This document shows, one piece after another, positions 15,716 through 50,872 of a stretch of 64,000 bases of DNA. A model generated the notes under the pieces. It searched no databases. It was not told the origin of the DNA and saw only the letters and a program-made list of their open reading frames with translations. Numbering within the stretch: position 1 is the stretch's first letter; every line of letters starts with the position of its first letter. The translations under genes and the position numbers were made by a program. This DNA is from Antedon mediterranea. Taxonomy: Eukaryota; Echinodermata; Crinoidea; Comatulida; Antedonidae. The DNA is taken from positions 1,059,001 to 1,123,000 of the forward strand of contig NC_092677.1 in the NCBI RefSeq assembly GCF_964355755.1. Direction: 5' to 3'.

Positions 15716-15829
15716 TCAAATGTCACTCTGGACGCTTGAATACTGTGTCTCTGGTTTTGTGCGAATATTTTCATCCTGTTTACCAGGATTGTTAAGATCC
15801 AGCTCAGCATATGCCAGTTGCTCTACGTT
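15716..15829 (-). CDS. Gene D last exon: ITIM + ITSM tail
   Basis: Acceptor GATGTAG, phase 0, 37 residues then TGA. LAYAEL at residues 5-10 fits (I/V/L/S)xYxx(I/V/L), and TQYSSV at 28-33 fits TxYxx(V/I). Homologous to gene G 36317-36201, with the same two motifs and IRTxPET in between. Confidence 0.85.
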   Translation of the reverse strand, partial: NVEQLAYAELDLNNPGKQDENIRTKPETQYSSVQSDI

Positions 15830-18800
15830 CTACATCAAGCAAATAGTACAATTTAAATATTATTATGATCCTAATTATAAATATTTTCAGTATTGTTTAG
15901 GTCGAATGTTTGATGGGCGGCGTTATTGGAAAAACCGTTGTTGATGCCAAGAATTTGTTAAAATTACACGTCTTTACTTACAGCCCCAGATTTCTTTGAA
16001 TCACTTGGTTTCGGCTTTTGGACGTATGCAGTACCATAACCACCAGTTAAACCTATTAATTCAGAGGTGTCTTTTGTGGTTATTACATTTCCAGCGGAGG
16101 TCCTAACCAAGTAAATGAAATTACATGAAATGGAATTATGTGATAATAATGTATGTGCAATTACTAGTAAATTATAGAATGAGTGCATAATAATTAATAA
16201 AAATACAGTACAGTATTTACATTTTGTTACCTGTGTTTTTTTTTTATAATAATACTTACACCCTCTCACTGAAACAATATTTTTTTCCTGTAAGAAGAAA
16301 TAGCAAAAAAAAAAAAAAAGTTTTGGCGAGAGGAAAAACTATATTTGACAATTCTGCTTTTATTTTCTATGGAATGGAGAGATTGTTTTCTTATATTCAG
16401 TAATTCATTAATTATAATTTCCTGTTATTCGTTTCACGGGAACGTCTCTTCTCAGTTAGGGGTGTACACTGAATAGGGGTGTCCTACATAGTTTAATGGT
16501 ACTGAGGTATAAGAAGCCCACTCATAATTATTTAGAATACATTTTACGAAAGGAACTACTTCACTACTACTAGGTTAGGTTCACACCCAAAACATTACTT
16601 ATCATTTTTATTAAAGGTGTTTGTGGAAAGCCGATTTATGATTGGTTTTTTGAATGGGATACATTTTAACTGAATTACTTTTTCTTATTATATTCTATGA
16701 GATAATTATTCTAAAAAAAATATTGAAAAGGATAGTTTTCAATTGGGTAAATCTTCAATTACAGTATCTCATGTATGTAGATAAAATTGCCAGAATATTT
16801 TTAAAGGGAATGTTTAAAGTTTTACGTTAATAGCCTACCAAAATTAGATATCCTGTAACACAGGCCTAAAAGGCTACAATAAAAGAATGCTACAGTATTC
16901 TTCATTTGAATTTTTGAACCTCCTAAATGCTTTTAAACCTAATAGAAAACGTCATATTCAATTTAGTAATTTTTTGTTATTAATATTCACACATTCTTAT
17001 CAATAACTTTATTCACAAACATGATTTTTTTAAATATAAAAACTATATATATATCAAATATTTTTTTTATTAATAATGTATGTTTTTGTTGTTTAGTAAT
17101 GTATTTTTGTTGTTTAATAATGTATTTTTGTTACATTAAAATTGTTTCACTACTGATATAACTTATAACTCTTGTTAGAGGACGTTTTTCTCGTTATAAT
17201 TACCGGTACGATTTTGTAGACAATATTCTTTGTAATTTGCAGATACACACTATTTAAAGGGAAATGTTATTATTGCTTTATGTTAATTGAACTTAACATT
17301 TTCGCAGTATGTAATACGTGAATAATTGATTATTATCCTATTTATATTATTGTTTCTTAGATTAGTAGTAGGCCTACTTTATTGGTATACATGACACCTG
17401 TTTTAAGGTCAACTATTCATTTTTCCAATTGTATAAGTTAAAACTATTAACTTACTACCAAAGATAAAGCCAAAATATAGGCCTATAGCAAGCACTATCA
17501 ATACAATCGTTACTGGTATAACAATTCCAACTGTAAAAAATAATATAAATTATTAAGTAAAAACAACACGACATTATGTGTATAAAATTAACTCTCTTAA
17601 CTTTTGCTTAACATAACATATATATTTTATGGAAAGGCAAAAAATGTGATGAAACAACCGACCATACTCTGTGCATTGTATCTTTAATATTTTACACATT
17701 ACGTCTTATGTATATAATTCATCAATTCTTACGATACATATTTATGTTCAATGTTTATTCTCCATAACCAGTATTGCTAAACTAGTTGTTTGAAATAGAT
17801 GCTCAGCTGAGTAGTTGGTAAACGTTTTATCATAAATTAGTTTTTAACCAATTTATATTTTCTGAATAAGACTCACCTATAAGATCAGCACTTTGCCCAT
17901 CACTGGGATTATAGACATCACTAGCTGTAATATAAAGTTAAAATATTCTTGTGAAAACTTTATGCGGTACTAATCAAACGGAAAAAAAACCCCACAAAAG
18001 TTGTTTTATAATAATTATTTTACATTCTGTGTTATAAATGATGATAACGATGACAATGTTGAAGTGAATGGAAACTTCAGACATATGGCCATCGTGCATT
18101 TTCTTGTGCAGCACCCATTTTGTGGAATAAACTGCCAATCGACATAAAGACATCTGAAAACATCTTTCAAAACACGACTAAAACCCATTTTTACACAGAG
18201 GCATTTCCTGCTTAACTTTGTCAAGCGCCTTTGAACATTATTTCTATGGATACTGGCGCTATATAAATCTGATTGATTGATTGATATTTGACAAAATTGT
18301 GCAGCATTAGCAGCAGCATTAGAATTAGCAGTAGCATTAGCATTAGAAGCAGCAATAGCATTAGCATTAGCAGTAGCATTAGCAACAGCATTAGCATTAG
18401 CAGCAGCATTATCAGTAGCAGCATTAGCAGCAGCATTAGCATTAGCAGCAGCATTATCAGTAGCATTAGCATTAGCAGCAGCATTATCAGTAGCATTAGC
18501 AGCAGCATTAGCAGCAGCATTAGCAGCAGCATTAGCATTAGCAGTAGCATTAGCAACAGCATTAGCATTAGCAGCAGCATTATCAGTAGCAGCATTAGCA
18601 GCAGCATTAGCATTAGCAGCAGCATTATCAGTAGCATTAGCATTAGCAGCAGCATTATCAGTAGCATTAGCAGCAGCATTAGCATTAGCAGCAGCATTAT
18701 CAGTAGCATTAGCATTAGCAGCAGCAGCATTAGCAGCAGCATTAGCATTAGCAGCAGCATTATCAGTAGCATTAGCATTAGCAGCAGCATTAGCAGCAGC

Positions 18801-21458
18801 ATTAGCAGCAGCATTAGCATTAGCAGTAGCATTAGCAACAGCATTAGCATTAGAAGCAGCATTATCAGTAGCATTAGCAGCAGAATTAGTATTAGCAGCA
18901 GCAGCATTAGCAGCAGCAGCATTAGCATTAGCAGCAGCATTAGCAGCAGCATTAGCATTAGCAGTAGCATTAGCAACATCATTAGCAGCAGCATTAGCAG
19001 CATTATCATTAGCAGCAGCATTAGAGCATTAGCAGAAGCATTAGCAGTAGCATTAGCAGCAGCATTATCATTAGCAGCAGCATTAGAGCATTAGCAGCAG
19101 CATTAGCATTAGCAGCAGCATTATCATTAGCAGCAGTAGCAGTAGCATTAGCAGTTTCATTAGCATTAGCAGCAGCATTAGCAGCAGCATTAGCATTAGC
19201 ATTAGCAGCAGTAGCACAGCAGCAGCAGCAGCGGTGGCAGCAGTAGCACAGCAGCAGCAGCAGTAGTAGTACGTTTTTCATCTAAGAATGATGTTAAAGA
19301 TAATGGAATGTGTGTGTACTTACAGTCTAGTTTGAGTGAAGCAGTGTTGCTAAGTTTCCCTTGCATTCCACGATAAGCAGCATTCTCTGCTCTACACTGG
19401 TAATCTCCTTCATCTGATACATTTACTTTATTAATAATTAATGCTGAATCAGAATATGAATATTTGTCTGTATCAGCCGTATTAAGTATGACGTCACCTT
19501 TACACCATGTGACGGTAATGGGGGTTGGTACACCATCAAGTGAAGAACACGTAAACATTGCTGTTTCATTTACCATCACAGACAGTTCTTGAGGCTCCAA
19601 AACAGGGTTGTTTAGATCTGCAATGCACAGAACACATTACATAGCATGTTTTAATATTAATGTTCTTACTGTAGACCTACATTTGTTTCATCCACGAGTG
19701 AGATGATTACTAAAATTTAGCAAGCCAATCAATGTTTTTCTTTAGAGACATTCATTCATTCAGGCGCGCTTTACCTGACTACAGGTATAGTCCAAACTGT
19801 TCATGGTTTTTTAATAACTTGTACTTTCAACAATTTTATAAAATTAAGCAATAATGGTCAACAAAAAAATGTAATAATCTGAAAGTAGAGTAAATCTGAA
19901 ATTTTAAGCATGATAAATAAATTTAAAAATTATTATATAGACGATCCGATAGAATTTAAAAGTGTTAGGATTTTCTATGAATAATTGTGATATAAACTTA
20001 TTTCTAACTCACATTGTACCGTAAGTGAGGCATGGTCATTAGCGGAATTCTCTTTAGTCGTAGTGATTTTACAGAGATAGTTGCTAGTATCATTTACTTT
20101 AACATTGGTAATGATAAGATCGTTATCATTAGATAACCTATAACGACCATTAGTTGTCTGTCCTGTAGCCAATAGAGTGTCCCCTACTTGTTGACCATCT
20201 TGGTCAGCTTTTGTCCAAACCAGTTGTAACAATGAATCTGCTGTAACAAGTGTATAAATACACGATATTATTGCATCTTCAGCAACCTTTACTGTATCAG
20301 GAACCATGACCGTCACCGATGTAGGTTGTGCATTAACTAAAACATAAAAACGCCTTGAATGTTTACTTTTATGATTATGTAAAGTCAGACGTTGAATCTG
20401 TACATCAAATAAACAAAAGTTGTACGCTAAATGGAAATATAAGTTATATAAATATATAAAAAATAAAATCCTTGTAATTCAAATAATTCGAATTAACGGT
20501 AAACATTTTTGAAGATTTTGAAAACCAAACTAAAAAAAGTACCGACCGAGTTATTTATTTGAAACACAGCCCTCATAAATTATATGTATGTATGTATTAC
20601 TCATCTGACTCATCAGATAGAAGTTTAGGCATTTTTCTTCACCTCAAATCTTTCGGAAAACCTATCTGTCAGATAAAGCTTTCGAGATATTTAAAGTAAT
20701 AAATACTTTCTTACACAGTACTTTATTGTAAATACTTACGATTGACATCAAGTTTTCCATAATCTTCACCAGTTTCGCCAGATGAATCCACAATTCTACA
20801 CTGATAATACCCGTCATCAGGTAGGTCTATGTTTATAATGGTGAGAGTAGCCACACCAGTTTGAGGAGTTTCTATTGTGATATCAACTTGATATCTACTA
20901 TTTGGATTAGATATCAGAGTATTAACGAGGATATTCAACTCATCTCCTGCTGAAGTGCTATTCAACCATTGAACACTATAAAGTGTTCTTGTTGTATCAC
21001 TGAGTGTGTAGTAACACTTGATATTAGCATCTTCACCTAATGTTACATTGCTATTCTGTACACTGACTTTTGGAAGGGTATTTATTTGACTGTTTGTAAC
21101 TGAAAAATAGAAACAAGTGGTCATGGTAAGAGAGTAAGTTAACAGATGGGGTGGGACCCTTTTCCCTAAATTCGTCACTTCCCATTATGTAGAATCCACT
21201 GATTATTTTTCAAACCACAATATCAGAACACATAGATACAATTATATGAAATAATTACACCAAAGCCTATCGTTTATTTCATGTTTCTTTGTTTTTTTTA
21301 CAGAATTTCGTAATTGGGTGGGAGCTATTTCACTAGGACCAGAACAATTGCAATTTATATATTGATATCTATAAAATGTTGAAAATCAAAAACACCCCAG
21401 ATTTACCGTGCACTGCTGTAGCAACCAAAGCGATGAACATGAGATGTTGTGTGGTCAT
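15716..21458 (-). CDS. Gene D: inhibitory-type Ig receptor with ITIM and ITSM
   Basis: Exons in gene order: 21458-21407 signal peptide, 21099-20740 V(a), 20336-20013 V(b), 19617-19324 Ig, 17924-17877 stalk, 17530-17456 membrane helix, 16287-16260 linker, 16102-15982 proximal tail, 15829-15716 distal tail. Phases agree throughout (1-1; linker 1-2; tail 2-0; last 0). The distal tail has a textbook ITIM (LAYAEL) and an ITSM (TQYSSV), as in vertebrate receptors that recruit SHP phosphatases or SAP proteins. The gene starts about 1.2 kb from, and opposite to, gene E, which shares V(a). Inhibitory function is inferred from motifs. Confidence 0.85.
15982..16102 (-). CDS. Gene D exon: membrane-proximal tail
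   Basis: Phase 2 in, 0 out. Contains SELIGLTGGYGTAYVQK. It aligns with gene G 38952-38772 (SEVIGLTNDDDVTYAQVQK), but the ITIM of G has become TAYVQK here, losing the +3 hydrophobic residue. If the donor GTAAGT were not used the frame would end five codons later. Confidence 0.78.
16260..16287 (-). CDS. Gene D exon: small linker
   Basis: 28 bases, phase 1 to 2, acceptor TTCTTACAG, donor GTAAGT. Encodes basic residues after the helix (KKYCFSER). Confidence 0.62.
17456..17530 (-). CDS. Gene D exon: transmembrane helix
   Basis: 25 codons, phase 1-1. Reads VGIVIPVTIVLIVLAIGLYF, then GFIFG: an uninterrupted hydrophobic helix without charged residues. Same place as gene G 41911-41852. Confidence 0.8.
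17877..17924 (-). CDS. Gene D exon: short stalk
   Basis: 16 codons, phase 1-1, acceptor TATTACAG, donor GTGAGT. Ser/Asp/Pro-rich, ending ADLIG; the counterpart in G has the same length and ends GGLIG. Confidence 0.72.
   Translation of the reverse strand, partial: LVMSIIPVMGKVLIL
18030..18292 (+). mobile_element. 3' end of a non-LTR retrotransposon
   Basis: The plus strand reads APILWNKLPIDIKTSENIF, the common C-terminal block of CR1/L2/Jockey-type reverse-transcriptase proteins, then a GCGCTATATAAAT 3' end and a GATT microsatellite tail. Sits inside an intron of gene D, opposite in strand. Confidence 0.72.
18297..19275. repeat. GCA/TTA trinucleotide array, about 1 kb
   Basis: Nearly pure GCAGCATTAGCATTA-type triplets with a few GTA, ACA and ATC variants. 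Because every unit is a multiple of three and lacks stops in several frames, it produces long spurious open frames (poly-Leu/Met, poly-Ser/Ile, poly-Ala/Asn). It lies in a gene D intron, directly after the retrotransposon tail. Confidence 0.92.
19324..19617 (-). CDS. Gene D exon: Ig (I-type) domain
   Basis: 98 codons, phase 1-1. Core: AMFTCSSLDGVPTPITVTW and DEGDYQCRAENAAY. Same domain as G 47614-47318, F 56553-56843 and the decayed copy in H. Confidence 0.86.
20013..20336 (-). CDS. Gene D exon: V(b)-type Ig domain
   Basis: 108 codons, phase 1-1. Cysteines in IISCIYTL and NYLCKITT, C-strand LLQLVWTKAD. Homologous to the single V domain of G, F and H. Confidence 0.86.
20740..21099 (-). CDS. 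Gene D exon: V(a)-type Ig domain
   Basis: 120 codons, phase 1-1. Motifs NIKCYYTL, SVQWLNSTSAGDEL and DDGYYQCRIV. Clearly homologous to the V domain of gene E (GVQWYNSTSTGDEL, DDGYYQCRVV), roughly 60% identical by eye. No other gene in the window has V(a). Confidence 0.86.
21407..21458 (-). CDS. Gene D exon 1: signal peptide
   Basis: ATG, then LMFIALVATAVHG, donor GTAAAT, phase 1. The base run TTATTTTAG just upstream of the ATG looks like the acceptor of a 5'-UTR intron. Confidence 0.75.
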
Positions 21459-22674: not shown

Positions 22675-22726
22675 ATGACGATATATAAATGGGAGTTAAT
22701 TATCCTAATGTTTCAGATATGTGATG
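22675..22726 (+). CDS. Gene E exon 1: signal peptide
   Basis: ATG then a hydrophobic stretch (LIILMFQICDG), donor GTAAGT, phase 1. TTTGCAG ten bases upstream is a likely 5'-UTR intron acceptor. Confidence 0.75.
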
Positions 22727-25700
22727 GTAAGTATAACATTTATATTGATAGAAATATAGATATATAAGCTGCAATACCAATTCTTAATTCTTGGTTCTCA
22801 CTAGGACGTAACGCAAGGACGTGCAACGCAAGCGATTTAACCAATGACTAGCAATGGATTATTCTGTTGCTTGTCATTGATCAACTCACTTGCGTTGTGC
22901 TTAGGTCATTGTGATGAATCAAAGTGGGAACTGATGTGACAAATTCGGTTAAAATTTGATATATTTTTTTTTCAGTTATAAATAGCCAAACTCTTCCAAT
23001 AGTGAATGTACAAGACGTTGATGTTACATTAGGTGAAAATGCTCTTATCATCTGTAATTATACATTCATTGACGCAAGAACACTTCTCGGTGTTCAATGG
23101 TACAATAGCACATCAACAGGAGATGAGTTAAACCAACTCCTCAACTCCCAGATATCTTATTCAAATGGCAGATATACAGTTGTCGCCTCCAGACAATCTG
23201 CTCAAACTGGAACAGCTACTCTCACCATTGCAAACACAGTGTTGTCTGATGATGGATACTATCAATGTAGAGTTGTTGATTCATTTGCCGAGACTGGTGA
23301 ACATTTTGGAAAACTGAATGTTCAATGTAAGTATCAGTAATGCTATTGTGAATGCTTTTTCTTTGGTATAACATAGGCCTACACTATGCGACGGTTGTGG
23401 TTTATGTAAAGTAGTTACCTAGCCTAACATACCGATCGATAGTGTAGCTTGCGAGATTCACCATGGTAACCTAATATTTATTGAAGCACATAATTGTGGT
23501 ACGTTTATTACAATTTAAAAAAACTTAATTCCTAAACAACATTATAATAAAAATGTTTCCCATTTTTCTTAGATGTTTTATATTCTATAACATTCGTACG
23601 TGAAGTCGTCACCACCACAGGCGGTTGATCATTCACACAATATAACACATGTTAATTGTTTCAATTCAATTCAATTCAAATTCAAAATTCATCCCACACG
23701 GAGCAATTCAAATAAAAAGGTCTGGATTAAAATGATCTTACAAAATATACAAAATATCACAATACACTAGTAGGTTACAATATAACAAGAGTCAAAGTTC
23801 AAGAATTTAGAAGTCGGATGGCCACTGGCAAAAACGAATTTCTTTTCCGGTTTGTTTTACATGCCGGGCATCGAAAGCGACGCCCATGAGGCATAAGCTC
23901 GAAATCACTGAACAAGGCATGGTTAACATTGTTAGAATAGTTCTACTTTTTTATAGTTTTTCATTGGCATAATATGTAGAAACAATAATTATAATAATCC
24001 ATCCATCATCCGGAAACCGTATAATCGGACTAACTAGTAACATTATAAACACTCCCATATCCGGTAAATTTTTAAAATAAAACAAAGCAATCTCTATTAT
24101 GTCAATGGTGATGATTAATTAAAAAATAATAATATAAAACAGTATAAAAAGAGGCCTATATAATAATAGGCGTACATTCGAGTTTTAAAAACACATTTCT
24201 AATCTGTACAAGATTGGAAAGCCCTCATCGCGATCAAGCAAAGAGCGGGTTGACTCTCAAAGCAGCGCGTACGTTAAAAAATGTTATAATATTTGTTTTT
24301 CTATTATCTGAAAAATGTCTACGTGCGTCCATGCTTTTTGATTGAAGATACATATACATCAGTATTTCATATTAAATAAAAATATACCAATAACAATAAC
24401 ATAAAAACAATAACATCGAACAAATAACGCGTTGATATCACAGTAAAAACAAATAATATGTTACTATCTTTATGCCTCAATATCCATCAATCAATAATTG
24501 TATTTAATCCATGAAAGAGTGCGATAAGTTCTACAAACTATGTTCACATGCAAATGGAAATGTCTTATAATACATCTTACAGATATCGATGACGTCATAA
24601 TTGATATCAGTTCATCTACTGATAGATATTTTGATTTGACGTGTTCTGGAAATGGTAACCCGGTTCCTCAAATGGAACTCTACCATAACGGGGTCATCAT
24701 AGAAAAGGATACTTCAACAATGATAAGACACTCAAGAATGCAAGTAACAACAGATGACAGTGGAAACTATAGATGTATTGCTAGTAATAGTGTTGGACAA
24801 AAGGAAAGTGACGTCATAGAACTAAATTACTGTAAGTATAAACATGAGAATGGTCAGTCTCTTCCCAAGTTAGTCTCATTTACTATTTTTATGTTATTCA
24901 TTTATTTCACCACCAACAAACAAACACCAACAACACCACTACCACTACAACAGCTTAATATCCAGATGCAGTATGCAGATGACATTTCATTTATTAGCGA
25001 CTCAAAAGAACACATAACTAAAATAAAGAAAAAAGTAACAGAGAAATTAGCAGAATTCAATCTAAAGATAAACGAAAGTAAAACAGAAGAATACCTAATA
25101 GGAAGAAACACCGATAGTAAATGGGAAGAATGCAAATACCTCGGTAGTAACTTGGACACAGAAAAAGACATTAAAAGAAGAAAATCACTAGCAGCTATGG
25201 CATATAACAAGCTGAAGCCGTCGCTAGAACACAAAACGATGTCTATAGACGTGAAATCCCGTTTGTTTGACGCATACATAGCAAGTATTTTCTTATATAA
25301 CAGTGAACTCTGGGTACTAAACAAAAAATTACAAGAGAGTATAGATATATATCACAGGAAAATGTTGCGAAAGATGATAGATATTAAATTAACTGATAGA
25401 GTGTGTAACACGAAAATATACGAGATAACAAAACAAGAAGAATGGAGTAAAAGAATTAAACGAAGGAGACTAAAATGGTATGGACACATAATTAGATTAC
25501 CGGATGATACCTCAATCAAACAAACAATGAAGGAAACTAACAGGAAAGTAAAACGACCCGTAGAAAGACCAAGAAATAACTGGATGAATCAAATAAAGAA
25601 AGACTTACAAGGACTAGTAGACACTAACACAATAACAAACCATCCTGCCATAAACAGAAACAAATGGAAACAAATTGTGGAAAGCGTAATGTCGGAAGAC

Positions 25701-28700: not shown

Positions 28701-29242
28701 GATCCAGCCACTGATACCCACAACATTGTCATTTTTTCAGTGCTTATTTTATTTTGTATCTCCATTGATATCCAGCCACTGATACCCACAACATTGTCAT
28801 TTTTTCAGTGCTTATTTTATTCTATATCTCCATTGATATCCAGCCACTGATACCCACAACATTGTCATTTTTTCAGTGCTTATTTTATTCTATATCTCCA
28901 TTGATATCCAGCCACTGATACCCACAACATTGTCATTTTTCAGTGCTTATTTTATTCTATATCTCCATTGATATCCAGCCACTGATACCCACAACATGGT
29001 TATTTTTTCAGTGCTTATTCTATATGTATCTCCACTGATGATATCACATCATTTTAATTCTTTCATACATTTTACTTTTGTTGATTAATATTATATTATT
29101 ATTTTTTCCTTTACAGCCATACATGGAATATAGGCCTAATGATAATACTGAAGGGGACAATAAAACCTACCAAGAACTACAACATAAAGCAGAGGAACCA
29201 GCTTATGTTAATGTTAAGGCTGGTGGTAAGAGAAGGAAGTGA
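22675..29242 (+). CDS. Gene E: Ig receptor with YVNV tail, partner of D
   Basis: Exons: 22675-22726 signal peptide, 22976-23326 V(a), 24583-24831 Ig, 26468-26728 cysteine-less Ig, 27227-27369 membrane, 27615-27659 linker, 29117-29242 tail. Every exon is open and in phase, so this is the cleanest copy of its class. The V domain matches V(a) of the divergent gene D, whereas the two other ectodomains match gene A. The tail carries YMEY, TYQELQ and AYVNVKA. An activating or adaptor-recruiting role is inferred from these motifs; there is no charged residue in the helix to suggest pairing with a DAP12-type chain. Confidence 0.86.
22790..22935. mobile_element. AAGCTTGG-family MITE in intron 1 of E
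   Basis: CTTGGTTCTCACTAG ... AACGCAAGGACG ... TTAACCAAT at the left and ACTTGCGTTG ... AAGTGGGAAC at the right match the element in intron 1 of C. It makes up more than half of this 249-base intron. Confidence 0.68.
22976..23326 (+). CDS. Gene E exon 2: V(a)-type Ig domain
   Basis: 117 codons, phase 1-1. LIICNYTF, GVQWYNSTSTGDEL and DDGYYQCRVV give the V-set core; the end reads GEHFGKLNV, like a G-strand. Confidence 0.87.
24583..24831 (+). CDS. Gene E exon 3: Ig domain
   Basis: 83 codons, phase 1-1. DLTCSGNGNPVPQ and DDSGNYRCIASNSVG. The C-strand Trp is replaced (QMELYHNG), as in A. The frame stays open past the donor into the retrotransposon fragment that follows. Confidence 0.84.
24899..25740 (+). 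mobile_element. 5'-truncated non-LTR retrotransposon (RTE-like RT fragment)
   Basis: The plus frame reads from QYADDISFI (RT active site YADD) through KYLGSNL and RRLKWYGHIIRLPDD to a stop at 25710-25712, with no internal stop, then an A-rich CAACAA tail. Lies in an intron of E. The intact frame suggests a fairly recent insertion. Clade assignment is from remembered motif style only. Confidence 0.78.
26468..26728 (+). CDS. Gene E exon 4: cysteine-less Ig-like domain
   Basis: 87 codons, phase 1-1. Keeps the core Trp (TYKWTIND) but has no cysteine at the B and F positions (TVTIDII, ITVNITNS). The same pattern occurs in gene A, so it is an old feature rather than a mutation here. Confidence 0.75.
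26899..27072. repeat. Dispersed repeat, copy 1
   Basis: AGACGGAGTTTTTTCTTAAT ... CACATATGACGTTTCAT ... GACTTGGGGCAAGTCTA resembles 49570-49737 in the G-F interval. A host-family repeat of unknown type. Confidence 0.6.
27227..27369 (+). CDS. Gene E exon 5: stalk and transmembrane helix
   Basis: Phase 1-0. EVCNNSTGIIIGMFFVG, then LTIGIFGLSTGIVIYKK. The motif CNxSTGxxxGMxFVG is shared with F, H and the orphan cassette (DCNSTGLVVGMTFVG); its cysteine just outside the membrane could allow disulfide-linked dimers (inference). Confidence 0.83.
27615..27659 (+). CDS. Gene E exon 6: basic linker
   Basis: 15 codons, phase 0-0 between GACAG and GTAAGC; Lys/Ser-rich (SSKGKPNKDK). Confidence 0.75.
27775..29045. 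repeat. Minisatellite, about 67-68 bp x 19
   Basis: Units of the form CCACTGATACCCACATCATT / GTCATTTTGTCAGTGCTTAT / TTTATTTGTATCTCCATTGA / TATCCAG. Occupies most of the last intron of gene E. The same CCAGCCACTGATAC core occurs inverted at 35783-35940. Confidence 0.92.
29117..29242 (+). CDS. Gene E last exon: tyrosine-motif tail
   Basis: 41 residues then TGA. YMEY at 2-5, TYQELQ at 17-22, AYVNVKA at 29-35, then a basic end GGKRRK. YQEL to YVNV gap is 8, within the ITAM spacing range. Acceptor TTTACAG. Confidence 0.86.
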   Translation, partial: PYMEYRPNDNTEGDNKTYQELQHKAEEPAYVNVKAGGKRRK

Positions 29243-34600: not shown

Positions 34601-35782
34601 ATTTTCCCTATAATTTATATTGATTATATATATCAATTAACAATTGCTAATTAACTAATTAAAGGTTAGGAATATATCAAAATAAATATTTTTTTCTTGT
34701 CTTGTTTTAGTCTAAACATAAGAACTTTTACATACTTTTTTATTTGACTGTCAGTAAATAAAATATAGCAAACTTGCATACTAAAAATGTTTAATGTCAT
34801 TGATGACAGCTTAAATAAAACAACACATACTACTATTATACCACCAAATACCTATAACCATTATTTAACGGTATATTAATGTTCAATTACCATATTTAAA
34901 ATTAGTGACAGATTTAGTTTAAAAATATAAAAACAAAGAGGATAATATGTAAATAATATAAACTTTTTAACGCTGAATAACAACATTGCTATAGTACGAA
35001 AAAGAAACCGATATAAACTTGTGTACCATACGTTTTTAAAAGGGAAAATCTGGTTACAAATACAAAGAGTAGGTCATGTGTCAATCGATCGTCAAACCCA
35101 TCAATGAGACAAATCATCACATAAATTGGTTCCTACTTAAAAAAAACATTTTCTGAAACAGCGAGAGCTACAATTTTAAATGATTAAAATTTGATGATTC
35201 TTGAACTAAGCCCTTATATTTTAACAATTATTTCATTTAAGAATTACCACATTATTTAAAATCCACTAACGGTTCATTATACTTTTTATATTCCTCTCAA
35301 ATTAAAACATCTAGCCTAATTGAGCAGTTGGTATGACTTAAATCGTATCAGCAACTTTACTTCCAATTGTTTGTTAAATTATATATTTTTGGATTGGTGG
35401 TTATGGAATCAGTTTATTTACAAAAATAACAAGAATCATATTTACATACATTAACAATTCTAACATTCAACAATTTCAATATTTCATTGATTGCTATACG
35501 TTACTTTCTAAAATAATGCTACATTCTGTCATGAAGTATATAAACATCTTGGCATCAAAACACCTAATTGGCAATGCATACTACAAGAAATTTACAATTA
35601 TACATGTCAAATTTCATAATACATGATATTGATGAAATCTGGTGCAGCATGGCAATCTAAGGCAGATAGAAAAAAGGGAAAACCCTATTCTTGATTAGGG
35701 AGACAACATTTTAAAATTTTGTTTAATCAGAGAAATTGTTACTCTTTATAAATCCAAAGGCAAATTACTGAAAAAATAACAA

Positions 35783-35940
35783 TGCTGTGTGTATCAGTGG
35801 CTGGATCTCTATGCAGATACATAGAATAAGCACTGAAAAAATAGCAACGCTGTGTGTATCAGTGGCTGGATCTCTATGCAGATACATAATGACAACGCTG
35901 TGTGTATCAGTGGCTGGATCTCTATGCAGATACATAGAAT
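35783..35940. repeat. Inverted units of the gene E minisatellite family
   Basis: Three units GTGTATCAGTGGCTGGATCT / CTATGCAGATACAT; the reverse complement matches the CCAGCCACTGATAC core of 27775-29045. Lies about 260 bases beyond the stop codon of G. Confidence 0.75.
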
Positions 35941-36200
35941 AATCTTTAACAAAATGATAAAAAAATGGCCAGGAAGAATATACTGTAACAAGCTTTCAGA
36001 TAACATGATCATTACAATTGCTTGCTTTCAATTTTTGATTAGACTTTTTTTTAAAGTTTTTCAAATCAATAATGTTTACGAAAATGGAAAAAGAATAAAT
36101 TCAAACTTGTATCAAGCTAACAGACTCATCAGAAGACTAGCTAATATTTCAGAAGTCTGTACAAAAATCTGTGTATTTGTTTCAATACAAGTGTTGAGTA

Positions 36201-36317
36201 TTAACGTTTAATGCTGGGCTGAACGCTTGAATATGTTGTCTCTGGTTCTGTGCGAATAATTTTATTCCCTTTACCAGAATGACGATGATCCACTTCAACA
36301 TAAGTCAGTTCTGCGTT
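36201..36317 (-). CDS. Gene G last exon: ITIM + ITSM tail
   Basis: Phase 0, acceptor GATGTAG, 38 residues then TAA. LTYVEV at 4-9 (ITIM) and TTYSSV at 27-32 (ITSM), homologous to gene D 15829-15716 at the same spacing. Confidence 0.85.
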   Translation of the reverse strand, partial: NAELTYVEVDHRHSGKGNKIIRTEPETTYSSVQPSIKR

Positions 36318-39300
36318 CTACATCAAAAAATAGTTCAAATATTATTACTTCAATTATAAATATGTTTAGGGTTGTCTATGTTTTGCCTATTTGGGTTGGT
36401 TAATTTGAGGTGGGACATTTTTATAAATGGCCTATTTATTATTTGTTTATTATAGGGTATCTTTTAGGGATAGCCTATTTAATGTTTGCGTAGGTATATA
36501 AATATGGTGGGCCAACAGTATAGACACATCGCAAGTAATTTGTGACAGTTGAAATGAATTGTGTTGCGTTATGTCTACGTGTTACTTCCTAGGGGGATCC
36601 AAGCAAGTCTATGTCTACGTGTTACTTCCTAGGGGGATCCAAGCAAGTCTATGTCTATGGGTGACTTCCTAGGGGGATCCAAGCAAGTCTATGTCTACGT
36701 GTTACTTCCTAGGGGGATCCAAGCAAGTCTATGTCTATGGGTGACTTCCTAGAGGGATCCAAGCAAGTCTATGTCTACGTGTTACTTCCTAGAGGGATCC
36801 AAGCAAGTCGATGTCTACGTGTTACTTCCTAGAGGGATCCAAGCAGGTCTATGTCTATGTGTTACTTCCTAGAGGGATCCAAGCAAGTGTATGTCTACGT
36901 GTGACTTCCTAGAGGGATCCAAGCAAGTCGATGTCTACGTGTTACTTCCTAGAGGGATCCAAGCAGGTCTATGTCTATGTGTTACTTCCTAGAGGGAACC
37001 AAGCAAGTCTATGTCTATGGGTGACTTCCTAGAGGGATCCAAGCAAGTCTATGTCTACGTGTTACTTCCTAGAGGGATCCAAGCAAGTCGATGTCTACGT
37101 GTTACTTCCTAGAGGGATCCAAGCAGGTCTATGTCTATGTGTTACTTCCTAGAGGGAACCAAGCAAGTCTATGTCTATGTGTTACTTCCTAGAGGGATCC
37201 AAGCAAGTCTATGTCTACGTGTTACTTCCTAGAGGGATCCAAGCAAGTCAATGTCTACGTGTTACTTCCTAGAGGGATCCAAGCAAGTCTATGTCTATGT
37301 GTTACTTCTTAGAGGGATCCAAGCAAGTCTATGTCTACGTGTGACTTCCTAGAGGGATCCAAGCAAGTCTATGTCTACGTGTTACTTCCTAGAGGGATCC
37401 AAGCAAGTCTATGTCTATGTGTTACTTCCTAGAAGGATCCAAGCAAGTCTATCGCCCGTATTCTTAAACCGGACTTTAGTCGTAGTTCGAGCTAAAACTA
37501 AAAAAATGACGTCATTTTAATTCATAAACCGAACTTCAACTAAATCACCGACTAAATCAGGCAAACCTCGACTAAATCGAGACGGATTTTGATCGATTTT
37601 TTTAGTCCTGGAGGGGGCAGACTAAATGGTCGACTAAATGGTTTTTAAACGATGTTTATAAAAAACGTAACAGTCATTGAGTTGTTATATTGGCCAGATA
37701 TTGAAGAATGAAATATCTATATTTATATTAGCTTAATTAAATATACATTGGTATAAATTATAATAATGAAAATCATCTTTATTTACAACTGTATACAAAT
37801 TACATTATTTTCTTCGCGCAAGTCCGACTTGAGCTACGTCACGCCATAGCGACAATGGGAGATGCGGCAATTCACCACGCGATGGAATGTTTAGTCGAGG
37901 TTGGCCTGATTTAGTCGGTGATTTAGTTGAAGTTCGGTTTATGAATTAAAATGTTTCATGGTCTAATCATCTTTAGAATGCATGATCATGCAAAATAAAA
38001 TTTTAAAAATACATGGGTTGAATGATGAACTAAGGGGATGAGATGAAAACCATTAATTGTATACAGAATACATAGTATGAAATCAACCTAAAAGGATTGT
38101 GAGAAGAAGGATTTGTGCTTCTTTTTAATAGTCTTAGAAACTCTCATTCTTTCTTTGTCATTCACTTCCTTCGTCAAATCACTTATTATTTCTTTCATTC
38201 ATCCATCCATCAATTGAGTACACACATTCCTTCATCAATCAATTCATTTCATTCTATTAAACAAAAGAAATGTACTTTTTGTCAATAAAGCCAAACATAA
38301 TGTTTTAATGTCCTTCATTGAGTTTCAAAGAAAATAAAATTCTTAAAAAAATATCAGACAAGGTTATTCAAATTAAATAATGTTTGTGATATGATATTAA
38401 TTTATCAAGACTTGGATAGAGTTGTTCTAAACTAAACATGACGAAATGTTTCTAATATAAGATTTGATTGCTCTGTGCAATAAGGAAGTATAATAAATAT
38501 ATTGTGTTTGTTTACTTCTAATATGAATAAAATGCTAATTTGATTTGAATTCATTGTTGGCTATCATCTTGACTGAGTGATAAAATACATATAAATCCAA
38601 TAATACTAATATTTTTTTAATCAATTAGAGAACAGTAAATGGTCTTATCTAAGTAATAAATATTAAGTTAAAGCTTAAATTTTTTTTAAAACAAAAACCG
38701 CAAATTTGGTGTTTTCTATGTTGCATTTAGCAAAACATTTATAAGTTTAAACATTTGGCGTCGTTACTTACGGCATCTGGTTTCTTTGTGTCATTTGTTT
38801 CTGCACGCTTTGGTTTTGCCGGCGCATTATTGGTTTTTTCTGGTTCCTTTGATTTAGCTGTCTTTTGTACTTGGGCATATGTGACATCATCATCATTAGT
38901 TAAACCTATTACTTCAGAGGGGCCTTCTTTGGTTACATTACAAGCGGGAGTCCTTTAAATTAGGCATTTAAATGTATCATTTTTAGCGATGCTATTTTTA
39001 AAAAGATATGCTATAAAACTTTTGTTTTACAAAATTATAATACAAAATAAAAAATAAATGTTATTATAAAGATATAAAGATATATAGTGATTTTTAAAAC
39101 TATTTGCAACATCTATGCTTTAGTGAAAAATATATATTTTAATTATTGAGAAGACTTCATAGCATTGACATTTTCTTTACTAAGGCTTATTTCTTTTTTA
39201 GTTAGTTTGAGTGAATAAGGTTGTCTTGGCTTAGTGAACAAATTAGGTACCAACAACAGTCAGCAATTATAACTATATATAAGTGAATGTTAATGTGTAT

Positions 39301-42300
39301 CAGTACATGCATGTATGGCCTCTATATATGAGGAAATAAATGTCCTAGGTCATGTGCCTAAGAAAGAAGAAGTATGTATTGTTATTATTATTACTACTAC
39401 AAATATAATAAAGTATTGCAATCGAAATGATAAGTGCAATTAATGCACATATTAAAGATGATATATTGCTTTATGCTCGCTAATGTTTACTTTTCTACTC
39501 TATGCTAATTTAAGCATGATGGGATTAACAATGATGATGAAGATGATAGTGATGTCAGTGATAATCATGCAAAGGCTGATGAACTAATTATGATAAATAT
39601 AACATGGTATGACAATTCATCATCAGCAGCATGGAACAAGTGACAGTCAAGAGAGGGATAAAATTGATGATGATGATAAGATGATGATGATGAGATGATG
39701 ATGAGATGATGATATGATAATGATGATGACGATAAAATCAATGTCTGCTATCACAGTACATTCTCTCTATTACTACAGTACCACCCACCATTTACCATCA
39801 TCAAAACCTTTACAATAAAGCAACTCTACAACCAACACCTACTACAGCATCCCAACACTCTACCCTACCATCACCACCACCACCACCACCACCAACACAT
39901 ACTTTACTATCAACCACCAATACCACCATCAGCACTTACTATATCATAACCAACTAAATACAGCTACCACAGTTCTAGCATTGTCAGTAAGAATGAGAGT
40001 GCATACAAGCAAATCCACAAGCAATTTTTTTTATAATTGCAGAATTAATAAATTATATTAATTAAGTACACAGTATAGAATATGAATACAATACATTTGC
40101 ATGATCAAAAGGTTAAGTAAGTTTTACAGGCCTGTAACCAGGAGGTTTACTTTATAAATACTTGGGGTATCTACATCCTGTGCCAAAGTCTACCCAGTTT
40201 TTATTTAATGATTATCATAATACAAATTGTTTTTATCTAAACTGACACAGTAATGTTACCTAATTCTTAGTGCTGTATCTCCACATGATCAGTATAATAG
40301 GAAAGGTAGGCAGGCAATAGTAATACAGCATCTCATGTGGTGCTTTTGTAGAGTTAGGTTATGGTCTATACTACTGTAGGCAATACATGTGATGATGTTT
40401 TATTACTAAATTTCCCTTTGATCGGGCGGTACTATGATACAATTATTTCTATAAATAATGTATCATAGTTTAATTACAGTACAAAACAGAGACAGTTGAA
40501 TAGAAAGTTGATTCATAGCAATTAACATGAACTAAGGAGTTATATTATATTGCTGGATTCTTGATAAGAGCTTAGTTCAGAAAACATCTTCCCATTTTAA
40601 AGTACATTCTATACACCCTGGGTTACCACGGGCAGTTGGGTTGAAACCCTACGATCAATCCTGCTTACAAGCCTGATTTAACTGAAGCAATATACGTTAG
40701 TAATCTATTCTATAATCTAATCTAAGAAAACCAGCAAAGAAATTATAATAATATTCACATGAATTAGTTCATATAATAATTATATATCAATGTAATTTAA
40801 TTTTAAAGAACAAAATAAATTTAATAACATAATAATTTAAAACCGAGCTTCAAAACCCACTATACATTTATATTATTATTTGCACATACTCTTTCGAAAC
40901 TATTTCAATCATTAATTTGTTTGTTTAATTAAAAAAAAAGATCTTTTAAAAAAAATCTTAAAAAAGGTAAATTTTGCAAATCTCTATGGCTTTCAAATTA
41001 TTTATAAAAGTTTTTGACAATACAAATGTTTCTTACACATCTCTTGTTGTATTTAATCTTTAAAAGCTAACGATTACTGTATAAAAATAAATTTCATATT
41101 TAAAAAAATCATCAGTTGTTATCCAGAAGATTTAAATATAACACAAATAAAAATGAAAATAGAAATGGATAGTATAATACTCACTTGAAACAAGCTATTC
41201 CCTTTTCTGTACATAATGAAAAAAAAAACACATTAGAATAGATAAAATATAATCCTATGGTATAACACAACCTAACATGAAAACCACAATATTCCCTGCA
41301 ACAAACTTTTAAACAATTGTTTTATATTATGAAATTGTTGCTGTCCTTTGTTTTATTTTTGTTTTTATACTATTTTTAGCAATAATAAGAAATAATTATA
41401 AATAAGTATAATTACAAAAGTTTCAACTTTGTATACCTATATTGTAACAAAAATGTAAAACTATTATATATTAGGTAAAATATCTTGGACGCCATAAAAT
41501 AAAATAGATCACTAGCTGGCAAAAAAAAAATGCTAGATGCTCTAATCTAATATTGTTTGATTTTAAGATAATTCAGGGCTACAGTATCTGTATTGGAGTT
41601 TTAACAATGATCTAAACTACCATATGCATTTGTATACTGTAGGTTCTTAAACATGCACAACAATTCTATTAACTTTATTTAATTAAATAGAAATACAGTT
41701 CTCCATCCAAATCTAGAATAATCTATGATTTATTTTATTAAATTAAGTTAGTAATGTTGTAAGATACTATTTCTGTCATATAAAAGTTTTATTTTGGAGA
41801 TTTTATATTCATTAATTCAAGTATTGTAGTGATCTACTAGTATCTACTTACGATAACAAACAAAAATTCCGATAAAAACCAACACCACTGATACTGCAGA
41901 CACAACCCCACCTATAAAAAGGTATCATTGCATAAAAAATACAATATATTTTCTAAAATAAGTCACTCAGCAATGATGTTGAAAATTTTTTTTTAAAGTA
42001 ACAGCTTTCTAAATCAATATCAAAGAAAATATATAACAATGTCAATAATGGATAAAAGTACTACAGCTTGACTTAGCTGGCCCTCTCACCTTTCTCCTAA
42101 CGTCCAAACAATTTGATAATTATTAAAACTTTTGCAGCACTGGATAATCTTCTAACATAGCACCTCGGTTAAGTTTACTTACCAATACCGAAGTTTTTGT
42201 TAATTATTATTTTTCCACACATAAACAAAATTAAAAAGATAATTATATCTATCAAAAATTAGTAATAACAAATGTGAAAGGAGATCAAAATAAATAAGTA

Positions 42301-45300
42301 AAGATTAGCCTTGACCACTTGAGCAATTGTGGACATGACAAGTAAAGTAAATTTAAAGAAGAAACCAAACAATATGAATAGTAGCGGGTCAATTTTAAAG
42401 TTCATAGTAATTGTGGCTAAGATTTAACTGCTTCTGGATTTGTCAAAGGATCTCATACAATTTCAACTAAGAAAATTTAAAATAAATAATAATAAATAAT
42501 TCATTAATAAATTCATAGGTGTGATTTACTTGGTTTTAAAAATATTTTGGGCAAATGAGTAAAAGACATTCATGGTTTTGGATCATAAGCATTTTTAAAT
42601 ATCTTTCAATTGAAATATTTATGTTTTGGAGTTTTCCTAAAAAGACTCACCTATTAGACCACCATTTACACTTTCAGGAGGATCAGTAGGAACAAAAGCT
42701 GTAAGTAATACAAAAAAATATTTTAAATAATAAACAAACTTAGCAGCAATTATAAACATGAAAATTAAATTCTACAGTACATTAAAACCAGGTAACAAAC
42801 TGTTTAAGTTTGACATTACTGTACAGTACGTACATTCACAAGTTTGTTTACACATTATACTTATTTCCAAGATGGACTGAGCAAAATGAGGCCAATTGCT
42901 ATTTTTTTGCAACCTAGAAGGGTTTTAAACTTTTAAAAATTTTGCAGCTAATATTAAACATTACAAGCATACAATATAAAAAATATAATGTGTTTGAAGC
43001 ATTTATATATGTATTATAGTGTTACATAATATAGAATATGTTTATTAGGTAAAAATAAACAGTATATTATAATTATTGAATATAGAATTGTATGACTTTA
43101 TTTTTCAAACCTTTTTATTTAGTACATTACTTTCAAGTTTTGTCATTGAATGACAAAAGCTATAATAAAAATGGTGATAGTAGCATTGTTTGTTGTTAGC
43201 ATAGCTTCTGTATCTATGTACAATGTATTACAGTATTATTTATAATAGTGACTTATGTTTTTTATTTGAAATTGTTGTTAATGTTAATAACTATGGAAAA
43301 AAAGTTAGTTTAGCAGTTGATTAAGAATTATTTGATTGAATTTTCTTGAGTAAGTACTCAAATTAACCGATTAGATGACTTATAATTTTCATAATTTTGT
43401 GAATATGAACTTTTAAGATAATCCCTAGACTGCAATCAATCCCTAGACTGCAATGATTATCAACATTTTAAAATGGAATTCCCCTTTTCTAAAAACTATA
43501 CAGGAAGGAATGTGCTGTGTTAACACTAGCCTGAACCAATATGATAGGTAATTTAATAATTAATATAATAATTTCTACAAATCAACATAACAAATGTATA
43601 AAACAATAAATTGATCACACAATTTCCAAAACATATGAATAAACTACAAAATAAATTCTACAAAGAAGACAAAGTGGCAACATTTTAAAATACAGTATGT
43701 TTAATTAGAGATTATTAATTATTATTTATTGTTAAGCCAGCTAACAATAGCTGTGTATGGTAACTGACTGATTGGCATCCTCTGTAGTCTTTAATATACA
43801 GTATATATATCTATATAAATAAATGGTAACATGTATAATGATGACAACAATTGAATGTCAAAATATAAAATGGTAATCATAACTTAATTCAATTTTACTG
43901 TACTGTGTAAGCACAGTATACAGTCAACTATCACAAAACCACGGATATCCTTAGGATTTCCCAAAACATCTAGAAATGTTGGAATCATAAGAAAATTCTG
44001 GTTTTGGAAGATTTTCCAGTTTCAGAGTCCCTTTTGAGAGACAAGTTGACTGTATAATTTTATGACAAGATAGGAAGTGAGCCCTAATTTTTACACCATA
44101 GAAATCATATTGAAATTTACTAACACCAGTATTTTGAATAAAAAGCAAGCAGCAAAATGTTATGAATAAAATGAAATATTATAGTTTACAAAACACTGTC
44201 ACTGAAGTTGTGACTAAAATTCTGCTGTGTGACGTAATTTTATTTTTTTGTCTGAGTCTGAAAACTACCACAAATGTTTACAAAATAATATAATAAAGTG
44301 GATAATTGATTACAGTACATCTAATTTAGTGAAAACTACATCAAGATTGAAAGTGAATTTGAGCAAATAAACAACCATCATGTTTAAGAAATGTCGTTTG
44401 AAATGAAAATTTACAATACAGAACACCGAATACTAATACTATATAGCATAAAATGTTTGATTTGCAAAGCCATATATTAGAATAGCTCTCTTAATAATGA
44501 AATAAAAAATTATATGGATGTTGCATTATGAAATATTTAATGCAAATATACAAACTGTCTTCAAAAATATGGCACTGCCCCTGCTAATTAAACTAAAACA
44601 TACCCAAAATGGTAGACAATGTCATCGCAGATATACTCTCGGTTAGTGTTATATCCTCTGTGATTATAATATAATATTAAATAGTAATTTATTTAATCCA
44701 ATATTTAAAGGCACAAATAATTCTATAAAAAGATTGTTATAATTATTAAGATACAGTATGGGAAGATTCAGACACCTTCAGACAGATAAAAATAAATACA
44801 TTCATTTTTTTACATTAAAGATGTATTGTCCCTTGAAACACAAAAAATGAAAAAAAAAATATTCTAAATTTAAATTAGCCATATCAAAGTAATATTAAAT
44901 TTATTCACTTTAAGTCGAAAATTCGAGCCAAAAACAACAAGTTTACGTAATTAACAGGTAAATTAATTAGATTACATTTCGTCTGGGAAATCGTCGCAAG
45001 CGAAAGTAAACAAAGATTTCAAACCATGAGTATGCATTATGCATGATGCTAATTAGGATTGTTTACAACTCGTCACGGTTGAGAAGGTGTTTTCACACAG
45101 ATCGCGAAGAAGTTTTATGATCATGCATACAGAGTAGCCAAACAAGCGCGTTGCATTATGAGATATGTTTTGATTGAAAACTTTGACTGGAAGTCAAAGT
45201 TATTTTTTGAACAAAAAAACATCTGTATTTCGGTTAAATTGTTTTTTTTCCCGACTAATTTTTGGTGAAAGTTAAAAACTATTATGATACTTCAAAATGA

Positions 45301-48300
45301 CCACATTTTATTCAAAATAAAAAAAAAAAATTTTTTTTTAATTAGTCAAAGGGACAATACATCTTTAATAGATAATATCTGGTTTATGGTTTGCTTATAT
45401 TAAAATGCAGTTTTGGAATGAACACTATGAAATTAGCACAGCTTCTTCTAAAGAAAGTGTACAACAATCTATACAAGATAAGTGCTATATTAAGATTAAA
45501 AATAGAAATTCAGACAGTGTAAGGACCATTGTACAAACTCCTACCATAAATGACTCAACATTAATCAAAATAGTACTAGGATTAGGATACAATAGAATCT
45601 ATTGAAACAAAATTTAAAGCTTTATATTATGGTTATAGTGGAAGGACATAATAGTAATTATATTCATCACTTAAGTTATTTGAAGCATATTTGGATGGAA
45701 GTTAACGGACTTGATTAATAATACTGTACTGCTAGATAGTTCTTAATTTTGCTATAAAAACAAACCAATACTTTAAGCTAAACAGTTGTGCATGCACCAA
45801 TATTTAATTAGCTTTTAAACACATTGCAGTAGTTTAAAGCACTATTAATACTTATAAGAAATATTTACAGTACCATTTTGCATAGGTACAGTATATCGTT
45901 TATCATTCAAATCACACTACAGTCAAAAAAATATATACTATACAATGTGTTTAACTTGAGACAACAATTGTTTTTGAACACCAGTAACTAATGCCTGAAA
46001 TAAAACTGGAGGTCCCAAATTATACAAAAACACTAACTTTTTATTTTGTAGAACCAGACAATGTTATACTTTAAAACATTTATTGCTTTGAATAATACTG
46101 TACAACCAAATGGTATGTATACAATCTAGTATAATAATTAATAGGAAAGTTGTAGTGACTATTAGTAAACTTAATAATTAGTTTTCAATAATTCTAAATT
46201 CCATTTATTGGACAAGCTTCCCAAATGTATACTAATAAGAGTAAGAACTTGTACTGGAAGTGTGTAATGATAGCATATAAAATAAAGCATATTATTAAAA
46301 TACAGGAGCAGGTCCAGGGGTAGGAGCTACTATAGGCACCAATGTGTGATCCAACAGTTTTCAGAACACAAATAATTCAACAATACAGTACAATCATCAA
46401 CATAAACATGATTATGAAACTGTTATGCCTCTCCTTTGTAGGCACCTCGGTCATACTGTCACAAAGTCCAAATCTGCTCCTGTATTCAACTATGTGTGCT
46501 ACTAACTACATGTATTTATACATGAAATCTATTACACATACTACTTACGTGGTGGTTCTGTTGTTTTAGGAGTAGTAGTCAACACTGAAAATCAAATTTT
46601 ATTTGATATAACTAAAACTAACATCTACAGTGGTGGATCCATAATTCACTATTCAAATTTGGCAGTGACATGTTTAAAGAACAATTTGTCTACTGATTGC
46701 AAAACTCTTAACTGGGTTCCATGACCTTTACATCATCATCATTTATATACATTTTCATATCCAAATCAAGAAAGTGCTTTTGTTTGCCATGAAGAAATCT
46801 TTCATCAAAATAAAGAAAGTTGTTTTTTTTTAAATTTTATACAAATTTGTTCTGAGAAAAGAATACAAGAATTACTGTCGGCCTAAAATAATTTTTTAAA
46901 CTTTATTTACTAAAACAATTTTGTTTCTCTCTCTAATTGTAATTTCATAATTATTCACCAAAAAAATACATGAAGAATAAATCTGTTCAGTGAAGCTTAA
47001 CAATGAATCAGGACATTGAGCAATAAGAAATTCAAATTACAAAACTAATACTGTAATTAGCATTTATTTTTACACAAAAAATAAAATGCAATGATACTGT
47101 ATAGTGTCAAATCACAATATGATTTCAATGGTTTCAAAATAATACTTGTACCAATGTACAGTATAGTTTAACCTGGTATACTGTATACAATACATAAATA
47201 GACAATGAATAAAAACACACCAAAACAACAAAAGCTTTGATTAGTGATGAAATACTTTCTGTATGATTTCAAATGAATAATTTGAAATGTTATTTAATAT
47301 TAGTAATTTGTACTTACGTTCCAATGTGAGTTTAGCAGTATTACTAAGTTTTCCGTTTGTTCCACTGTAAGCAGCATTCTCTGCTCTACACTGATACATT
47401 CCTTCATCTTCTTCAACAATGTTATTAATCGTTAATGTTGCATCAGAAGACGGATACTTGTCTGTATTAGAAACACCAAGTGGATTGCCATCTTTGATCC
47501 ATGTTGTGACAGTAATTGGTGTTGGTAAACCTTCAAGTTTAGTACATGTAAATGTCGCTGTTTTATTTAATGTGGCATAGAATTCTACTGGTTGCAAATC
47601 TGGTACTTCAAGATCTGAAATGGCAAAAATTATACTGTACAGTTCTTGGATAATCATTTGTTTAGAATTACACAATTGACATTTCTACCAATTAGTTTAC
47701 TACTACTAATACAGTAATTGTTAATGTTTAGTACTCTTTGACAATATAACACATACATAGGATATTGAATATTCATTTGGTTCTGATGTAAATAACATCC
47801 CTGCATTATAATTTAATAATTTAAATATCATACATTGTTTTAAAGATTAAATTTGTAAATTATATACCGTACATTATACTCTAAAAAGCAAACACATCAA
47901 TTGGGAAGTAAATTACCATCATACCACTGAAATAGATGATGATACTTTTTTATTTTTATCCAAATTATTGGTTTCATTTTTTTTTCTGATTGTGAAACTT
48001 ATGATTCAAAGATGAAATTAAAATTACTGTACTAACTGACATGTATTGTACAGTACCTGAAATAAACATATTTAAATAAATTTAAAAAAATCCTTTTTAC
48101 TATTAAAAATACTCACAATAGACTGTGAGATTAGCAAAGTTTTCAGCACTATTTCCACCAACGGTGCTAACGCTACAACGATAGTTGTCTGCGTCACCTC
48201 TCACAACATCAGTTATTATAAGATTATCATTGGACAAACTGTATCGATCATTGTTTGGTTGTCCTGTAGTGACAAGAGCACTTCCTACTGCTTGTCCACT

Positions 48301-50832: not shown

Positions 50833-50872
50833 ATGATGACTTTTTGTTTGCTGCTATTTTTTCTTGTATTTG
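50833..50872 (+). CDS. Gene F exon 1: signal peptide
   Basis: Two tandem ATG codons, then FCLLLFFLVFG, donor GTAAGT, phase 1, compatible with the V exon at 55721. It is separated from it by nested retrotransposons. Confidence 0.65.

Follow-up and report, generated by a model that had tools for sequence, protein, structure and literature searches.

Candidate paired receptors in a crinoid: immunoglobulin-type genes with ITIM/ITSM tails face genes with a common V domain and another tyrosine-bearing tail

A 64-kb stretch of DNA from the crinoid Antedon mediterranea (the window; AT-rich animal DNA, with a G+C content of 31.6%) carries two minus-strand genes, D and G, whose last coding exons each encode an ITIM followed by an ITSM. 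Each of them lies head to head with a plus-strand gene (F facing D, and E facing G); the members of a pair have a common N-terminal V domain and different tails, ITIM/ITSM in D and G, TYQ(D/E)L...YVNV in F and E. It is this paired, head-to-head setting, beyond the tail motifs themselves, that gives the locus its real interest. We put at roughly one in two the probability that D and G form the ITIM/ITSM side of a paired-receptor system reached convergently in an echinoderm, which would make them candidate inhibitory receptors. The exons of the four genes are given in Table 1.

Table 1. Positions in the window of the exons of genes D, F, G and E, and of the longest nearly identical G/E tract
Gene	Feature	Positions	Strand	Basis
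D	start/signal exon	21407..21458	-	splice model; residues identical to public P0005
D	V1, first V-type Ig exon	20740..21099	-	splice model; Pfam V-set 7e-11; tree: related to F V exon
D	V2, second V-type Ig exon	20013..20336	-	splice model; Pfam Ig families; tree: kin of G and E V exons
D	I-set Ig exon	19324..19617	-	splice model; Pfam Ig_3/I-set on surrounding ORF
D	stalk exon	17877..17924	-	splice model
D	transmembrane exon	17456..17530	-	splice model; best 19-residue Kyte-Doolittle mean 3.06
D	mini exon, 3' of membrane span	16260..16287	-	phase 1 in, 2 out; pyrimidine-rich acceptor; GTAAGT donor
D	tail1 exon	15982..16102	-	splice model; aligned with G
D	tail2, last coding exon: ITIM LAYAEL + ITSM TQYSSV, stop	15716..15829	-	splice model; motif scan
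F	start/signal coding stretch	22675..22725	+	partial F model
F	V-type Ig exon, related to D V1	22976..23326	+	model; tree
F	tail TYQEL...YVNV	29117..29239	+	tail scan; motif scan
G	start/signal coding stretch	48817..48870	-	placed from P0002
G	V-type Ig exon; 319/324 bases as in E V exon	48117..48440	-	splice model; P0002 residues
G	I-set Ig exon	47318..47614	-	splice model; P0002; Pfam on surrounding ORF
G	stalk1, optional; missing from public isoform X2	46549..46584	-	splice model
G	stalk2 exon	42651..42698	-	splice model; P0002
G	transmembrane exon	41852..41911	-	splice model; P0002; best 19-residue mean 2.70
G	mini exon	41185..41206	-	splice model; P0002
G	tail1 exon with ITIM VTYAQV	38772..38952	-	splice model; motif scan; P0002
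G	tail2, last coding exon: ITIM LTYVEV + ITSM TTYSSV, stop	36201..36317	-	splice model; same residues in P0002
E	start/signal coding stretch	50833..50871	+	placed from P0003
E	V-type Ig exon	55715..56038	+	splice model; residues identical in P0003
E	I-set Ig exon	56553..56843	+	splice model; P0003
E	transmembrane exon	57332..57480	+	membrane residues as in P0003; best 19-residue mean 3.04
E	tail exon TYQDL...YVNV	57800..57922	+	motif scan; P0003 has extra LQ before modelled start
G/E	longest tract with one mismatch, 469/1,099 ungapped columns	47947..48415	mate on plus strand from ~55740	permutation

The preliminary description of this DNA had reported an ITIM and an ITSM in the last exons of D and G. 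A regular-expression motif scan finds both, on the minus strand (a strand had not been named) and with the exon coordinates exact, and the equal spacing claimed for them is indeed there, 23 residues separating the two motif tyrosines in D as in G. The exons measure 114 nt (D) and 117 nt (G); each follows an AG acceptor, is entered in phase 0 (in G, the phase counted from the V exon) and is terminated by a stop codon. Both genes, modelled as type I membrane proteins, have a tail that fits the ITIM, (I/V/L/S)xYxx(I/V/L), and the ITSM, TxYxx(V/I). That the ITIM precedes the ITSM and that the exon is part of a receptor, as had also been proposed, is backed for G by the public protein P0002 and for D by the splice model. 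P0002 is the G model minus stalk1 (348/348 residues, tail included) and consists of V and I-set domains, a membrane span and then the ITIM/ITSM tail. The G tail has three motifs (VTYAQV, LTYVEV, TTYSSV) and the D tail two (LAYAEL, TQYSSV): the D tail1 tyrosine that aligns with the first ITIM of G lies in TAYVQK, where the K at +3 leaves no ITIM. To judge from this alignment, the first ITIM may have been lost from D or may never have been present there. The last intron of G harbours a 40-bp tandem array of 22 copies (36570-37452), about 250 bp from the ITIM/ITSM exon. At 37513-37576 / 37890-37953, 64-bp inverted arms that are 98% alike enclose ~310 bp in a MITE-like arrangement.

By itself the ITIM pattern says little, since VYYLEV in the ectodomains of G and E fits it too. 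This, together with a dN/dS near 1 in the tail exon, is what could lead one to regard the D and G motifs as chance matches to loose patterns, a reading that we consider very improbable. When the residues of each exon were shuffled, both motifs turned up together in only 92 (D) and 248 (G) of 200,000 trials (0.05-0.12%, in a post hoc test), and chance would also have to account for the equal spacing in two genes and for the third ITIM-type motif in G.

Selection on the motifs is another matter. The motif tyrosines had been described as kept while the sequence around them had changed. The tyrosines are kept, but the flanks are not specially changed, 20 of the 36 aligned residues being identical exon-wide. 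The +3 positions, said to be kept as well, hold residues permitted in an ITIM in both genes, but the ITIM residue is not identical, being L in D and V in G. The chance that all five named motif columns fall among the identical columns is 0.04, and for the two tyrosines alone it is 0.30. Between the tail2 exons of D and G, 16 of 36 aligned residues are different (dS 0.376, dN 0.303), and dN/dS is 0.80 (bootstrap 0.32-2.6), against 0.49 for V2 of D and V of G, 0.57 for the I exons and 0.55 for tail1. Thus, tail2 is not more constrained than those exons. In a neutral simulation, both motifs were retained in open frames in 8.6-9.0% of cases at d=0.25, in 2.6-2.7% at 0.376 (the dS of tail2), in 0.7-1.1% at 0.5 and in 0.3-0.5% at 0.6. 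The similarity between D and G also continues into the intron (74.9% over 175 bp). The earlier conclusion that this conservation points to selection therefore keeps mild support, from the 2.6-2.7% neutral retention, and no more, given a dN/dS that is not confidently below 1. On that interval and on the simulation we rejected the tail exon as proof of selection, which these comparisons leave weakly supported.

The exons of the gene D model are, in order, signal, V1, V2, I-set, stalk, membrane, mini, tail1 and tail2; their phases fit together and their borders are AG/GT. The public protein P0005 is identical to this model over the first 343 residues and then departs, without membrane span and tail. 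It runs through the donor of the I exon into a microsatellite intron and ends there. The repeat, a long microsatellite of Ala/Asn codons, occupies 18301-19243 in the intron between the I and stalk exons; P0005 enters its near edge and ends as a translation of it. This is why its truncated end looks like an annotation artefact. Splicing of the tail onto the D receptor is predicted by the splice model, the public protein stopping before the membrane exon. A tail exon not spliced to the receptor had been named beforehand as counting against the receptor reading; for D, the annotation goes part of the way there, P0005 having no tail, and for G the tail is present in P0002. One may thus suppose that the membrane and tail exons of D are out of use, D now being secreted as in the public model and only G having a working ITIM/ITSM tail, a supposition with which the missing ITIM in D tail1 also agrees. 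We find it rather unlikely: besides the suspect end of P0005, the four membrane and tail exons of D are all open, with matching phases, and their 7 splice dinucleotides are intact, a state that neutral drift preserves in 0.0002-0.01 of 5000 runs (branch lengths 0.15-0.3). Such a low neutral probability speaks for use until recently.

The partner tails form a class of their own. The window contains six tails of the TYxxL/HYxxL type (genes A, C, F and E, and two copies in gene H), all on the plus strand; the two ITIM/ITSM tails occur on the minus strand. The order of motifs in the plus-strand tails is Y-M-x-Y (YMNS in C), then TYQ(D/E)L (HYDDL in C), then YVNV (YHSV in C). YxN is an established site for the SH2 domain of Grb2. 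The six window tails were aligned with those of P0006 and of P0007 from Anneissia japonica (n=8): all 8 have the three tyrosines, the L and the V, and 7/8 have the N of YxN; the partner-type tail is conserved in Anneissia japonica P0007. The dN/dS values are 0.19 (0.04-0.96) and 0.21 (0-0.78) for the E/H tails and 0.37 (0.14-1.01) for A/F; E/F is saturated. The C-terminal tail of P0006, an A. mediterranea protein described as CEACAM5-like, reads HTYEELQKKDTNQVYENV, which we take to recall the ITAM-like segment of CEACAM3. The gap from L to Y is 8 in 3/8 partner-type tails, 9 in 4/8 and 10 in 1/8, and the +3 residue of the second motif is V in 8/8. A canonical ITAM, (D/E)xxYxx(L/I)x6-8Yxx(L/I) as printed in PMC2832619, was considered for the E and F tails and rejected on this +3 V and this gap of 8-10. 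Gene E agrees with P0003 at all 195 Ig residues compared and in the YVNV tail. The sequence of its membrane span shows no charged residue, which, like the departure from a canonical ITAM, counts against the paired-receptor reading. The F model is partial, and no public protein for F is among the 8 returned by the search described below. Just before the F tail exon, the last F intron contains a 68-bp tandem array of about 18 copies (27831-29039), related to a short array at 35763-35960. In gene C, two tandem Ig exons on the plus strand (10650-11037 and 12098-12472) match at 89.5% over 391 bp, having arisen by a recent internal duplication.

The start codons of D (21458, minus strand) and F (22675, plus strand) are 1,216 bp apart, and those of G (48870, minus strand) and E (50833, plus strand) 1,962 bp. 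In a tree of 11 V domains, which left out the V-like domains of genes A and C, V1 of D joins the V domain of F (86/82) and the V domain of G joins that of E (90/87). Both pair forks are below the 95/80 mark; the larger groups around them reach 100/100 and 99/97. The two pairs differ in what has become of their V exons. Between D and F, 72 of 116 residues are identical and dS is 0.64, with no sign of recent homogenisation; lacking the G/E-like pattern, the D/F pair is either older or not maintained. Paired receptors are recognised by highly similar domains of the ligand-binding type within one cluster, a feature that is plain in G/E (319/324 bases) and weak in D/F, and by similarity kept through gene conversion, of which the V exons show the marks in G/E and no sign in D/F.

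The inverted match between G and E is 90.9% over 1150 bp and spans V exon, intron and I exon, which could suggest nothing more than a recent inverted duplication of the whole block, followed by faster evolution of the I exon and without any gene conversion. The differences are unequally distributed, however. The V exons are identical at 98.5% of their bases, the V-I intron at 463/480 ungapped positions and the I exon at 263/291 (90.4%), and substitutions differ between V and I exons with a Fisher p=7e-6. Synonymous divergence is about tenfold lower in V (0.013) than in I (0.124), on small counts of 1.0 and 7.5 changes. The 469-column tract of Table 1 takes in the greater part of the V exon and runs into the beginning of the intron that follows, and a tract of this length was reached in 0/5000 permutations. 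We therefore consider duplication without conversion fairly improbable. Because the V exon, which lies mostly inside this tract, is 98.5% identical and the I exon only 90.4%, we read the G/E block as the sequence pattern of gene conversion, as in vertebrate paired receptors.

Relatives were sought with three spliced models from the window as queries (8,000 candidates scored). Eight proteins were returned, P0001-P0006 from A. mediterranea and P0007 and P0008 from Anneissia japonica, and only one of the 8, gene G itself, has an ITIM/ITSM tail; no relative outside the locus has one, and P0007 and P0008, the two relatives found in Anneissia japonica, are without the D/G type of tail. The D tail alone as query gave 47 candidates, none with E<=10 among proteins of 0.55-1.75 times the length of D. 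Public names among the 8 include JAM-B-like, amalgam-like, sax-3-like and hemicentin-1-like. In a profile search of solved structures the best matches were titin, ROBO and DSCAM, and P0002 alone matched DSCAM best; the CEACAM1 chain 9gh5_D came 13th among the best 60 profile matches listed. A CEACAM identity was accordingly rejected, the Ig domains being no closer to CEACAMs than to other Ig proteins, of which DSCAM, titin and ROBO rank best, and so was a JAM identity, the structure matches being generic. Since no single named vertebrate family fits the Ig domains in these searches, the resemblance to vertebrate receptors would be one of convergence and not of membership.

The same names and structure matches would suit ordinary neural or epithelial Ig adhesion proteins, in which the tail tyrosines serve endocytosis or adaptor docking and the V identity of G and E reflects recent duplication. 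This is somewhat unlikely in our opinion. Public names and I-set matches of this kind are generic for Ig proteins, and adhesion alone leaves unexplained why the two tail classes are sorted by strand, why the V domain is common to each pair, and why the conversion-like tract is confined to the V exon and the adjacent intron.

If D and G work as their architecture suggests, they would be type I membrane receptors with V-type and I-set Ig domains, and their tails would be suited to tyrosine phosphorylation on ITIM and ITSM. Binding of a ligand would lead a Src-family kinase to phosphorylate the tail, and the two phosphotyrosines would then recruit a tandem-SH2 phosphatase of the SHP type, dampening nearby signalling; D and G are, on their motifs, most likely inhibitory receptors. 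The partner, F for D and E for G, would carry the common V domain and, in the YxN of YVNV, a motif suited to Grb2-type SH2 adaptors, and for that reason its response to the same kind of ligand is probably an activating signal or one of a different sort. Recent gene conversion would have made the V exons of G and E alike as the exon after them diverged. Phosphorylation, SH2 partners, the sign of the signals, a common ligand and an immune role are what we infer for these four genes.

In PD-1, a V-type domain and a membrane span are followed by an ITIM and then an ITSM in the tail. D and G are similar in all three respects, in architecture only, no sequence relationship being claimed. The PD-1 motifs are phosphorylated by Lck and recruit SHP2 (PMC8211107). 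As for the pairing, Siglec-11 and Siglec-16 are reported to be head-to-head inhibitory and activating genes whose extracellular exons, including the V-set exon, have been homogenised by gene conversion, and G/E resembles them in orientation and in V-exon conversion. Differences are that the activating Siglec-16 uses an ITAM-bearing adaptor, whereas the crinoid partner carries its own tyrosine tail, and that the distance between start codons is only ~1.2 and 2.0 kb in the crinoid pairs, the human Siglec-11 and Siglec-16 genes being ~9 kb apart. The likeness to a CEACAM-type tail drawn in the preliminary description is apt, because a single cytoplasmic exon of CEACAM1 supplies one ITIM and one ITSM in most mammals examined (PMC2832619). 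The ceacam genes of Xenopus with ITIM/ITSM tails and those with ITAM-like tails are oppositely oriented and show N-exon conversion; from such features they have been argued to be paired receptors (PMC5112662). The crinoid genes are thus like the CEACAM1/CEACAM3 type in having ITIM and ITSM in one exon, genes in opposite orientation and N-exon conversion (PMC2832619, PMC5112662). They depart from it in that the partner tail, YxxL-x8-10-YxNV, occupies a single exon, whereas CEACAM ITAM motifs are described as split by phase 0 introns, and in that their Ig domains match generic Ig proteins best, unlike what CEACAM membership would give.

Among invertebrates, the fester co-receptors (FcoRs) of Botryllus and Alr of Hydractinia are clustered receptors with ITIM and activating-type tyrosine motifs, and Botryllus is reported to express homologs of SHP-1, SHIP, Src and Syk family kinases and Grb2 (PMC12065747). 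Unlike the crinoid genes, the FcoRs also have a sushi domain and pair with fester genes, and the text of PMC12065747 available to us describes no head-to-head pair with a common V exon. Amphioxus BbLcLRR is, like D and G, an invertebrate receptor with ITIM-type tyrosines, which in human T cells bind SHIP1 and, with less strength, SHP1/2; unlike them, it has LRRs in place of Ig domains, and its ITSM-like sequence is in the predicted ectodomain (PMC8211107). Among the open-access matches listed, we found no ITIM/ITSM paired receptor of a crinoid or other echinoderm, which does not prove absence. Crinoids are the sister group of all other living echinoderms (PMC11336682).

A bolder proposal, which we make tentatively and hold to be possible but on balance doubtful, is that an on/off paired-receptor locus arose in an echinoderm independently of vertebrates, and that its head-to-head Ig receptor genes, one ITIM-ITIM-ITSM and one Grb2-type, have a common V domain which exon-limited gene conversion keeps identical. 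Such a locus would parallel the vertebrate paired receptors used against pathogens that exploit inhibitory receptors. If so, the pairing of inhibitory and signalling twins and the gene conversion of their binding domains would not be a speciality of vertebrates or of NK cells; the paired-receptor solution would have been reached again in an echinoderm, and one would predict the same ligand, opposite signals and the same cells for the two members of a pair.

The remainder of the window adds some minor features. An Rfam scan of the 64 kb gave no match, nor did the Ig exons of D against a phage collection. Open frames at 24900-25700 and 51400-54800 resemble fragments of non-LTR reverse transcriptases, their translations being judged by eye. 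Gene H, on the plus strand at 59971-63188, is degenerate, with an in-frame stop in its V exon near 60311, and its tail region includes an element with 91% inverted ends (61910-62135 / 62649-62881).
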